A DNA stretch of 64,000 nucleotides, taken from NCBI GenBank assembly GCA_028866895.1, contig JAGWHF010000002.1, positions 133,309 to 197,308 on the forward strand, given 5' to 3'. Each line of letters opens with the position of its first letter. The first letter of the stretch is position 1. The notes beneath the pieces are model-generated. The model ran no database searches. It was not told where the DNA came from and saw only the letters and a program-made list of their open reading frames with translations. Positions 60,769-64,000 of the stretch are shown in pieces. Both the position numbers and the translations under genes were made by a program. Origin of the DNA: Nitrososphaerota archaeon (lineage in GTDB: Archaea; Thermoproteota; Nitrososphaeria; Nitrososphaerales; Nitrosopumilaceae).

Positions 60769-62043
60769 CTACTGGTTGGGATTGTATCTTAAAAAGGCAC
60801 CGACCTTGCCTATGCTTGAGAGCATTGCCCCATGCTCGGTCGAACCTGAGATGACCTCTATCTTCGTTCCAGTCTGATCTGCAAGTAAGGAAAGATAATC
60901 GACGATATCCCTTTCTGACGATTCTAGGTCCATGCTTTTACAGTTTGGACAAGGCGTACTCATAAGCTCCTGAATTCGTGGGATTACCTTCGGCCTTTCC
61001 AGAATCTCGGACTGGACTGTCTGACATCTCTTGCAAGTTATGTCTATCTTCCGCAGGTTGGTATCGTCGGTTATAAGTATGGTATCAACAACGTTTCTCT
61101 TAAGCAGATCAATTATGTCCTTCAAACCGTACGTGGCAAGTCCTTTGCTATTGTGTATATCGTAAAACAGTTTTTCAACAAATTTTTTCTCCTCCACCAT
61201 GCGAAAGTCTGTAAGTACATCCTGGGCCCTTGAAAATGCCTCTCTCACGCCTTCAGCCCCGGCATAGGAGGTATCAAGCGTGGCAAGGATCATGTTTTGA
61301 AGTCTGTATTCCAAGTATTCTTCTTTTATGAAATTCTCCTTGGTTGGGCCTGGGCCAGATATGATGAGGCCTTTTATGGGATAAATATCGACGAAATACT
61401 CCTTTGTTGTACTGGCAACCCTGTTATAGTAGTCATTAAGCTCCATCTCGCGAAGTCTTTCAAACCTCCTTGCCGATTGTCCGCCCTGCCTGTGTTTTCC
61501 AGCCACGCCGGAAGAAGTCTCAGAAAGCACGTCGAGCTTGTCGCCTTGCAGCAAACCCCAACCCGCATCCTTGGCATCGATTGCAAGAAAGCCAATCATA
61601 TTATCCTCCTTGAGCATATCTTTGAGGATGTCTACGTGGAAATGATCGTCACACCGATAAAGGAATGTCTGCAGCTCCTTCGGCGGCTCTATCTCGTACA
61701 TCTTTATTACCTCGCTGCCAATTGGTCCGCCCCCAGCAGGCGGCAGCGCCCCGCAAAACATGACTAGCCCGTTATCCGGTGCCTTCTTGTACAACTTCAG
61801 CCTCTGAATTACCCTGGAAAGCGCATCAACCACATGGGTCCTTGTGAGATCCGACTTGATGTTGTCTGCGGTACCCTGCTCCTCCCTAAGACCATTGATT
61901 ACCTCGTGCAATGCCTTCTTCGGCGGCACATAAAGCGAGATAAGTTCAGTACCGCGACCGCTTTTGTCAGAGAGCTCCTCCAACGTCTTTCGTAGTCGGT
62001 ATAATTTTACAGAATCATGTTTTTCGATTTTTGGTTTCACCAT
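60769..62043 (-). CDS. prf1: Peptide chain release factor aRF1
   Basis: A 424-residue archaeal class 1 release factor. N-I-K-S at 61-64 and Y-R-C-D-D-H-F at 129-135 form the stop-codon recognition loops, and G-G-Q at 187-189 triggers peptide release. The C-terminal domain has a zinc-ribbon-like C-K-R-C plus C-P-N-C. It recognises all three stop codons. Confidence 0.97.
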   Translation of the reverse strand: MVKPKIEKHDSVKLYRLRKTLEELSDKSGRGTELISLYVPPKKALHEVINGLREEQGTADNIKSDLTRTHVVDALSRVIQRLKLYKKAPDNGLVMFCGALPPAGGGPIGSEVIKMYEIEPPKELQTFLYRCDDHFHVDILKDMLKEDNMIGFLAIDAKDAGWGLLQGDKLDVLSETSSGVAGKHRQGGQSARRFERLREMELNDYYNRVASTTKEYFVDIYPIKGLIISGPGPTKENFIKEEYLEYRLQNMILATLDTSYAGAEGVREAFSRAQDVLTDFRMVEEKKFVEKLFYDIHNSKGLATYGLKDIIDLLKRNVVDTILITDDTNLRKIDITCKRCQTVQSEILERPKVIPRIQELMSTPCPNCKSMDLESSERDIVDYLSLLADQTGTKIEVISGSTEHGAMLSSIGKVGAFLRYNPNQ

Positions 62044-62063: not shown

Positions 62064-62705
62064 TTAGATGCTATCTATTACCTGTTTAAAGACGGAAAGG
62101 GGCTGTGCTCCTTCTACTTTCGTCGCCTTGTCATTGGTAAATATGATGAATGTGGGTGTTGCATCTACGCCTATTTCTTGACCAAACTTCTGGTTGTCCA
62201 GCACCTTCTCCTCGTACTTTTTGTCTGCCAAGCATTGATCAAATGGCCCCAAATTCAAGCCCACATTTGTCGCAAAACGGTCAAGCGATGCTTGGGTTAT
62301 CCATCCGGTCCTCTCGCCCCCCCAATTCCTGTAAAGCTCGTCATGGTACTGCCAATATTTGTTCTGATCTCCGGCACAGTATGACGCCTCGGCTGCAAAG
62401 ACGGAGTCTGGCCCATTCAATGGAAAGTCGCGGAAGACAAAATTAGCCTTCCCAGTGTCAACATAATCGCTTATCAATTGGTCTTTGGTATTCTCTTGGA
62501 ACAGGTGGCAGTAGGTACACTGGTAATCCCCCCATTCAACTATGGTAATTTTTGCATTAGGATCACCAAGAAGCGGCGAGCCGTTTTCCATGAGGGCTTT
62601 GACTGGAATAGTTGTATTGGTGGTGCTATTGTGAGGGTAGGAAAGAAAACCCGAAATTCCGGCAATTGCAATTATCGCGGGTATTACAAAGTAGTATTTT
62701 TTCAC
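62064..62705 (-). CDS. DsbA-like exported thiol:disulfide oxidoreductase
   Basis: A 213-residue protein. An N-terminal hydrophobic anchor (F-V-I-P-A-I-I-A-I-A-G-I) precedes a thioredoxin fold with an inserted helical domain. The active site is C63-T-Y-C66 and the cis-proline loop is A-T-P-T-F. It resembles BdbD/DsbA proteins that introduce disulfides in exported proteins, relevant to the many secreted Cys-pair proteins nearby. The start is GTG. It lies 20 bases upstream of prf1 on the same strand. Confidence 0.9.
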   Translation of the reverse strand: MKKYYFVIPAIIAIAGISGFLSYPHNSTTNTTIPVKALMENGSPLLGDPNAKITIVEWGDYQCTYCHLFQENTKDQLISDYVDTGKANFVFRDFPLNGPDSVFAAEASYCAGDQNKYWQYHDELYRNWGGERTGWITQASLDRFATNVGLNLGPFDQCLADKKYEEKVLDNQKFGQEIGVDATPTFIIFTNDKATKVEGAQPLSVFKQVIDSI

Positions 62706-62849: not shown

Positions 62850-63185
62850 CTATGTTTCCTGATTTGGAGTCAGGATGATCGTCGGCTCAGGTTTTCGTAT
62901 GACGATGTCCGCCTTGCTAATCCTGCTCTTATAGACTTTGAATCTCTTTCCATTCTCGGATAGTTCCCACCTGTCTACTTTTACTAGAGCAATGTCTTCC
63001 AGGTCGGTTATCTTTTTGTATACCGAGCTTAAGGGTATCCTGTACTTTTCTGACAGCTCAAGAGCCGTCCTGCCTTCCTTGACTATGGAAAAAAGTATGG
63101 TCCTTGCCTGTGCATCTGATAATGCTTCCAGAACTTTTTGGTTGATATCATATTTCTTTAGTTGCGAGAACGGAATTTTCTTCAA
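62850..63185 (-). CDS. Winged-helix transcriptional regulator
   Basis: A 111-residue protein with an ArsR/MarR-like winged helix: L-S-D-A-Q-A-R-T-I-L-F-S-I, T-A-L-E-L-S-E-K-Y-R-I-P-L-S-S-V-Y-K-K-I-T-D-L (recognition helix) and a basic wing. No metal-binding cysteines or DtxR-type dimer domain are seen. It is divergent from the ZIP transporter gene and shares with it a 106-base control region full of palindromes, so it may control itself and the transporter. Confidence 0.85.
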   Translation of the reverse strand: MKKIPFSQLKKYDINQKVLEALSDAQARTILFSIVKEGRTALELSEKYRIPLSSVYKKITDLEDIALVKVDRWELSENGKRFKVYKSRISKADIVIRKPEPTIILTPNQET

Positions 63186-63196
63186 GGTTTTCTGAA

Positions 63197-63210
63197 TTAG
63201 GCAAGCCTAA
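63197..63210. promoter_or_regulatory. TTAG-N6-CTAA operator candidate, regulator side
   Basis: TTAGGC-AA-GCCTAA is a perfect 14-base palindrome resembling DtxR/SirR-type metal regulator boxes. It lies between the regulator's TATA box (63211-63219) and its start codon, 11 bases upstream of the ATG, where binding would block transcription. Confidence 0.6.
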
Positions 63211-63219
63211 CTATTTAAA
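63211..63219 (-). promoter_or_regulatory. TATA box of the winged-helix regulator gene
   Basis: On the minus strand the run reads tttaaatag, centred about 30 bases upstream of the ATG at 63185. Confidence 0.5.
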
Positions 63220-63229
63220 CCAAATGAGA

Positions 63230-63249
63230 TGTTCCAAGATTTTGGAACA
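63230..63249. promoter_or_regulatory. Central 20-base palindrome of the regulator/ZIP control region
   Basis: TGTTCCAA-GATT-TTGGAACA has two perfect 8-base arms. It sits 10 bases from the regulator's TATA box and 8 bases from the ZIP TATA box, almost exactly midway. It differs from the two TTAG-N6-CTAA sites, so a second protein, perhaps the adjacent regulator, may bind it. Confidence 0.6.
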
Positions 63250-63257
63250 ATTCTGTC

Positions 63258-63266
63258 GTTTAAATA
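63258..63266 (+). promoter_or_regulatory. TATA box of the ZIP transporter gene
   Basis: gtttaaata is centred about 30 bases upstream of the ZIP ATG at 63292, predicting a very short or absent leader. Confidence 0.5.
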
Positions 63267-63268
63267 AG

Positions 63269-63282
63269 TTAGCTTATCCTAA
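63269..63282. promoter_or_regulatory. TTAG-N6-CTAA operator candidate, ZIP side
   Basis: TTAG-CTTATC-CTAA repeats the four-base half-sites of the regulator-side box, extended to AGTTAG...CTAACT at 63267-63284. It lies between the ZIP TATA box and the start codon, 9 bases before the ATG, mirroring the other site. Confidence 0.6.
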
Positions 63283-63291
63283 CTAAGATGG

Positions 63292-64000
63292 ATGGATTAC
63301 TGGCAATTGATCCTGCTTGGAGCAATCGCGGGCTTTACGATATTCCTCGGGCTTCCGGTAGCAGTGATGAAAAATTTGACCTTAAAAAAGAAGGGCTTCC
63401 TCAATGCTGTCGCTCTTGGAATCTTGGTATTTCTCATAATCGACGTTTTCAGTCACGGTTACGAGACCGCATCAGATGCTGCGACCAATGCTTTTGCAGG
63501 CAAGGCTCCAATGGGAACAGCAGTGGTCGACCTTCTTGCACTCTTCGGCGGTATAGCCATTGGCCTCCTTGGACTATCGTGGTTTGAACACAAAACGATG
63601 ACAAAAAATGTGCCTCAAATTCTATCGCTTGAAAATATCCAAAAAGGCGATGATCATTTACGCCAGTCGTTCCACGACATCAATGCCTATCGTCTTGCCA
63701 TGATGATTGCAGTAGGAATTGGCGCACACAACTTCAGCGAGGGGCTGGCAATAGGACAGTCTTATGTGGCAGGGGAAATTGGCCTGGCGATTCTCCTGAT
63801 TATTGGATTTGGTGCACACAACACGACGGAGGGATTCGGAATAGCTGGTCCTCTCACAGGAGTTTTGAAAAAACCTACTGCAAAGTTCCTGTTGCTGGCG
63901 GGGCTTGTCGGTGGAGGGCCCACCTTTCTTGGCACGGTACTTGGAAGCCTAATATTTTCAAATGTAGCTTATATCTTGTTTCTCTCAATTGCAGGTGGTG
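63292..64000 (+). CDS. ZIP-family divalent metal transporter, 3' end outside window
   Basis: The frame from ATG 63292 runs open to the window end (236 codons). It begins M-D-Y-W-Q-L-I-L-L-G-A-I-A-G-F-T and contains at least five hydrophobic helices. The metal-site motifs of ZIP transporters are clear: G-A-H-N-F-S-E-G-L-A-I-G and later G-A-H-N-T-T-E-G-F. The cytoplasmic loop between helices holds scattered His and Asp. It probably imports zinc, iron or manganese. The palindrome-rich promoter suggests metal-responsive control. Confidence 0.9.
   Translation, partial: MDYWQLILLGAIAGFTIFLGLPVAVMKNLTLKKKGFLNAVALGILVFLIIDVFSHGYETASDAATNAFAGKAPMGTAVVDLLALFGGIAIGLLGLSWFEHKTMTKNVPQILSLENIQKGDDHLRQSFHDINAYRLAMMIAVGIGAHNFSEGLAIGQSYVAGEIGLAILLIIGFGAHNTTEGFGIAGPLTGVLKKPTAKFLLLAGLVGGGPTFLGTVLGSLIFSNVAYILFLSIAGG

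Follow-up and report, generated by a model that had tools for sequence, protein, structure and literature searches.

The 106-base region between a small winged-helix (wHTH) regulator gene and a ZIP-family metal transporter gene, in the 64,000 nucleotides of DNA from an ammonia-oxidizing soil archaeon analyzed here (the window), is a real control region. We suggest, with a probability of about 0.7, that it is the shared dual-operator promoter of an iron-uptake locus, in which two DtxR-type boxes are combined with a palindrome read by the wHTH protein. The conservation of these elements, their positions, their co-occurrence and the synteny around them were observed directly across related genomes. 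DtxR-controlled metal uptake is known; what is new is a lineage-specific second operator with its own presumed regulator, and the unusual exchange of transporters behind a conserved promoter.

The region (63186-63291) runs from the TTG start of the wHTH gene, on the minus strand, to the ATG of the ZIP gene, which begins at 63292 on the plus strand. An initial annotation of this DNA had described two TATA boxes, two copies of TTAG-N6-CTAA at 11 and 9 bases from the starts, and a perfect 8+4+8 palindrome at the midpoint, and every one of these details matched the sequence (Table 1). The right box reads TTAGGATAAGCTAA on the minus strand. Archaeal TATA boxes lie about 26 bp upstream of transcription start sites, and both transcripts would therefore be nearly leaderless, with each box placed between its TATA box and the start of transcription. 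The transporter belongs to the ZIP family by its match to PF02535, where the partial protein in the window scores 37.7 bits against a cut-off of 35.1.

Table 1. Genes and control elements at the regulator-ZIP locus (window positions)
Feature	Position	Strand	Remarks
aRF1 (peptide chain release factor)	60769-62043	-	identified from sequence; syntenic anchor
DsbA-like thioredoxin-fold protein	62064-62705	-	Pfam Thioredoxin_4, 2.8e-28; conserved neighbor
Winged-helix (wHTH) regulator, 111 aa	62850-63185	-	ArsR-like fold; candidate protein for the central palindrome
Regulator start codon TTG	63183-63185	-	11 bases from the left box; same start open in orthologs
Left DtxR-type box TTAGGCAAGCCTAA	63197-63210	-	exact TTAG-N6-CTAA, between regulator TATA box and start; 11 bases from TTG
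Regulator TATA box	63212-63219	-	TTTAAATA on the minus strand; 100% conserved columns
Central palindrome TGTTCCAAGATTTTGGAACA	63230-63249	.	perfect 8+4+8 at the midpoint of the region; family-wide core TTCYA-N6-TRGAA
ZIP TATA box	63259-63266	+	11 bp to palindrome core in 27/27 scored Nitrosotalea ZIP promoters
Right DtxR-type box TTAGCTTATCCTAA	63269-63282	+	between ZIP TATA box and start; 9 bases from ATG; conserved as TTAGCTNNTCCTAA
ZIP-family metal transporter	63292-64000, past the window end	+	281 aa in full (full length seen in L002)

A palindrome pair by itself is weak evidence, and conservation is the decisive test. TTAG-N6-CTAA is expected 0.77 times in the window and was found twice, both times inside the control region. 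The genome-wide search for this motif that the initial annotation had proposed returned 11 sites, against 46 for the reversed pattern; several of the matches fall within coding DNA and were disregarded. The central 20-mer has a single occurrence in its own genome. As a genome-wide motif the palindrome alone is weak (22, 40 and 18 sites; the reversed control gave 14, 20 and 22), so that only co-occurrence or a promoter position is informative.

We compared 32 orthologous regions from Ca. Nitrosotalea and near relatives, with a genus sample of 37 genomes (the window's own and 36 others, of which G035 was taken as N. devanaterra LN890280.1). The initial annotation had made its reading depend on the palindromes being conserved at orthologous genes; all 32 regions keep every element in the order box-TATA-palindrome-TATA-box and at near-fixed spacing, and the left box is present as TTAG-N6-CTAA in 32/32. 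Column conservation is 99-100% in the TATA boxes, 92-94% in the DtxR-type boxes and 79-88% in the palindrome arms, with most of the flanking spacer at 60-77%. On the regulator side, 1 bp separates box and TATA, and 12-15 bp separate TATA and palindrome. On the ZIP side, the palindrome stands 11 bp from the TATA box (34 bp in one species with a duplicated palindrome), which is followed 3-4 bp later by the right box. Across orthologs the left box is a near-perfect palindrome (TTAGGNNNGCCTAA), and the right box is conserved in an asymmetric form. The box-gap-palindrome pattern was found in 31/37 genus genomes, with one match for the reversed control; conservation and reversed-pattern controls together rule out chance palindromes. 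In the region with the duplication (L036, from G015), both copies of the palindrome lie between the TATA boxes.

The DtxR box, TTAGGTTAGSCTAACCTAA, is a palindrome of the TTAGG-N4-CCTAA type, and Leyn and Rodionov are said to have described archaeal DtxR regulons in 2015. That the outer sites are of this type, as had been proposed from the window, is supported by their company in other families of the order: among the matches listed, the same motif precedes FTR1-DtxR operons (L129, L131) and DtxR-FeoB genes (L130, L134) and occurs at a divergent FTR1/DtxR pair (L133). A Nitrososphaeraceae ZIP gene (62% identical) has tandem boxes upstream. The box at FTR1, FeoB and DtxR genes favors iron, with manganese as the alternative. 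Two DtxR-family proteins are encoded in the window's own genome (two PF02742 matches above cut-off). One is MntR-like (top PDB match MntR, 7.6e-32) and retains, in the alignment, the residues generally known to act as MntR ligands; its gene is divergent from Nramp, with the box TTAGCCCAAGCTAA between them. The other is nearest to SloR/ScaR, followed by other DtxR-family proteins including DtxR and IdeR. The locus shares with the operators of DtxR, IdeR and MntR the palindromic box type, the control of ZIP, FeoB, FTR1 and Nramp genes, the presence of DtxR-family genes in the genome and, in relatives, boxes at the DtxR genes themselves. It differs in that the boxes here are 14 bp long and abut the TATA boxes, and in the addition of another conserved palindrome, at fixed spacing, that goes with a winged-helix regulator encoded nearby.

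The adjacent wHTH protein is the most likely binder of the central palindrome, as the initial annotation had suggested. In other genera, where wHTH1 is transcribed from a promoter of its own, the palindrome lies at about -60 to -69 and there is no DtxR box. Strict matches occur in 15/28 of these promoters, where 0.03 are expected from shuffles, and near-matches in most of the rest; boxes are present at the wHTH1 promoter in two Nitrosotalea-type loci (L328, L337) and in the divergent L335. With or without a box, then, the palindrome accompanies the wHTH gene, which is what autoregulation would predict, and the comparative evidence is consistent with the dual metal-dependent and autoregulatory control put forward earlier.

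Orthologs of the wHTH protein are 73-87% identical in 29 other genus genomes, and the recognition-helix segment RIPLSSVYKK is invariant among all 30. No Cys or His is conserved among these 30 orthologs, which rules out a metal sensor of the ArsR (Cys/His) type. An AlphaFold2 model (pLDDT 87.5) gave as its top Foldseek match the P. furiosus heat shock regulator 2p4w (E 2.3e-05), followed by CzrA and SmtB at about 1e-3. The protein scores under all of the curated family cut-offs tested (ArsR, TrmB and related models), with 18.1 bits against the ArsR model NF033788 (cut-off 55) and 17.8 bits against the TrmB family PF01978 (gathering cut-off 25.6). By analogy with ArsR/SmtB-like regulators (Phr 2p4w, CzrA, SmtB), whose fold it is predicted to share, it would probably bind its palindrome as a dimer and regulate its own gene. 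It differs from them in lacking the Cys/His metal site, in falling below the family cut-offs, in being paired with a DtxR box and in being specific to an archaeal lineage.

The same arrangement reaches well beyond the genus. We searched 300 genomes of the order (132 of the window's own family, which its members suggest to be the Nitrosopumilaceae, and 168 outside it) for box-N14..44-palindrome and found it in 90/132 Nitrosopumilaceae genomes and in 5/168 of the others, four of these five matches sharing one rRNA-like sequence. Gene order was followed at 33 loci. Most of those with sufficient flanking sequence have aRF1, DsbA, CbtA, wHTH1 (usually with wHTH2) and the promoter, in that order, and end in a transporter of one of three unrelated kinds: a ZIP protein in Nitrosotalea, L328 and L337; a protein of 735-740 aa whose C-terminal part is an FTR1/EfeU permease domain in L327 and L329-L331 (and, by similarity, L348-L351); and a PhnDCE ABC transporter in others, with the PhnE model and the substrate-binding subfamily TIGR01098 both above cut-off. 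At the ZIP, FTR1 and PhnDCE promoters, the box sits between TATA and start. The distance from palindrome to TATA is fixed within each promoter class, at 11 bp for ZIP and FTR1, 24 bp for PhnDCE and 37 bp for a long class. On this comparative evidence it is about an even bet that iron uptake is controlled from one syntenic promoter slot, served by a DtxR repressor and a lineage-specific wHTH activator, into which non-homologous transporters (ZIP, FTR1, PhnDCE) have been plugged. One PhnDCE locus (L320:2317-5057 in G128) we take to be that of N. maritimus SCM1; there, and at about 20 loci like it, phnDCE follows the same box-TATA-palindrome promoter, adjoining a winged-helix pair. The distances of 11, 24 and 37 bp form a ladder of 13 bp, and in PhnDCE promoters a further half-site occupies the 11-bp position. 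The DsbA-like protein of the window is similar to the thioredoxin-like (seleno)lipoproteins of the Rcas_1661 family, at 129.5 bits with a cut-off of 190.

The long class came from the wider pattern box-N45..70-palindrome, which occurs in 28/37 genus genomes (control, 1). Nearly all of its matches form a single new class, with palindrome, 37 bp, TATA, and a box overlapping or just before the start codon; the pattern also matched one site in G036, the duplicated short promoter of G015 and the sufC promoter of the window's own genome. These long promoters (about 27 loci) precede a secreted pentapeptide-repeat protein, often followed by a multicopper oxidase and/or a ZIP gene. Another conserved feature within them (L159-L188) is TGTTTTCA, located between palindrome and TATA. 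Box and palindrome are found together upstream of sufC (L274:1715-1860 in the window's own genome, and L268-L273) and of sufB (L283, L153 and, with a one-mismatch box, L276 in the own genome). A TTTAGCTTGGCCTAC element is conserved at the sufB promoters. At the suf genes the box is found on the upstream side of TATA, where a simple steric block is no explanation, and the DtxR protein may act differently.

The ZIP gene is absent from the locus in three genomes (L021, L026, L028). The right box is gone in 3/3 and the left box is retained in all three (in one with a single mismatch), so that each box appears to travel with its gene, the right one with ZIP and the left one with the regulator. The central palindrome is retained in 2/3; in L028 it was lost though the wHTH gene was kept. 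In G021, a ZIP gene (86% identical) lies elsewhere, under a long-class promoter with palindrome and box.

From these comparisons we infer which proteins bind, which metal is sensed, and whether the central element activates or represses. An iron-loaded DtxR-family repressor would bind both TTAG-N6-CTAA boxes, between TATA and start, so that transcription could initiate at neither the regulator gene nor ZIP; when iron is scarce, it would release the boxes. A wHTH dimer would bind the central palindrome, upstream of both TATA/BRE elements, and control its own gene together with the transporter. We lean, from its position, toward the central element being activating, the wHTH protein recruiting the basal machinery. 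Positions upstream of TATA are typical of archaeal activators, and the palindrome is always upstream of TATA at fixed distances (11, 24 or 37 bp, and further in suf), never over the TATA box or the start. Alternatively, the wHTH protein may be a second repressor that imposes an AND-type shut-off on ZIP and on itself, which we consider the less probable of the two but a serious contender: ArsR-like proteins are often autorepressors, and at this divergent promoter the palindrome is near enough to both BREs to interfere.

The choice of metal depends on the company that the promoter keeps. FTR1 is iron-specific, and with suf and DtxR-FeoB also among the associated genes, iron is the best reading for the promoter and is more likely than zinc. 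The same architecture could nonetheless respond to manganese or zinc, with the boxes read by the MntR-like paralog and ZIP importing one of these metals. Manganese is possible since the Nramp/MntR-like pair also has a box, with the ligand residues of its regulator retained, and ZIP proteins carry several divalent metals. Moreover, Herbold et al. 2017 (PMC5767755) annotated OG2531, a horizontally acquired, Nitrosotalea-specific ZIP, as a Zn importer. By a single strong match in N. devanaterra, OG2531 is almost certainly the ZIP gene of the window; genus and family are the same, but its promoter here looks iron-regulated. We consider a manganese or zinc promoter unlikely, as the same promoter stands before FTR1 in sister genera and at suf operons, and the box lies at FTR1-DtxR and FeoB-DtxR operons elsewhere. 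Among the genes examined near the boxes, the partners were of Fe, Fe-S, Mn or copper-oxidase type, with no dedicated zinc gene among them.

It is similarly improbable that the palindrome is bound by some other regulator, whether another wHTH paralog or an unrelated factor that dimerizes, and that the adjacent wHTH gene is only a target. Any of the ten or so wHTH paralogs of ammonia-oxidizing archaea (AOA) could bind it; wHTH2 co-occurs in most genera, and the palindrome is also found at promoters far from the wHTH gene. However, wHTH2 is absent from Nitrosotalea loci, where the palindrome is intact, and the wHTH1 promoter carries the palindrome alone. Seven genus genomes have no full-length wHTH match, and several of them keep the palindrome, but we rejected this as a refutation of wHTH ownership because the absences coincide with assembly gaps: five of the seven also lack the universal aRF1, the G016 contig starts inside the neighboring dsbA, and aRF1 is partial in G009. 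That the conservation reflects nothing but shared ancestry or the base composition of short intergenic DNA seems to us extremely improbable. All of the sequences do share ancestry, and short palindromes arise readily in AT-rich intergenic DNA; yet spacers diverge where the elements do not, the same motif pair recurs at non-homologous promoters, reversed controls are near zero, and the few matches outside the family come mostly from the rRNA-like sequence.

If the iron-uptake promoter is indeed a shared slot, it bears on two questions from the literature. No iron-specific uptake system is known in N. maritimus (PMC6776035, PMC9723733), and the phnCDE genes of AOA, which are without a C-P lyase partner, may carry another substrate (PMC7490402). 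The AOA phnCDE "phosphonate" ABC transporter (PMC7490402, PMC3990693) is the cluster that lies behind the same type of promoter, with the same synteny, in the presumed N. maritimus SCM1 genome. The literature leaves its substrate open, whereas the promoter suggests import of iron or an iron chelate, which would give both questions one answer: the orphan phnCDE would supply N. maritimus with its missing iron importer, and the ZIP of Nitrosotalea would import iron and not zinc. The nearest solved structures of the PhnD binding protein bind phosphite, phosphonate or arsenate; these relatives neither support iron nor settle the substrate, and we counted them against iron import by phnCDE. Our literature search found no paper on AOA iron regulation. 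AOA count among Earth's most abundant microbes, and their iron transporters have so far been unclear; by motif search, the combined box and palindrome could also lead to the remaining members of the iron regulon.

Some further loci are of related interest. In another family (L121:3440-4390 in G043), the genes for a winged-helix homolog and DtxR seem to make up one operon, and tandem DtxR boxes adjoin a TATA box there. G020 has a second winged-helix copy (L136:2194-2550), 59% identical to the window protein, and its first copy is without a ZIP neighbor. Finally, in the complete genome G006, additional ZIP copies that are broken or fragmentary lie close to other TTAGGCAAGCCTAA sites (C1:899465-899710 and 1272765-1273382).
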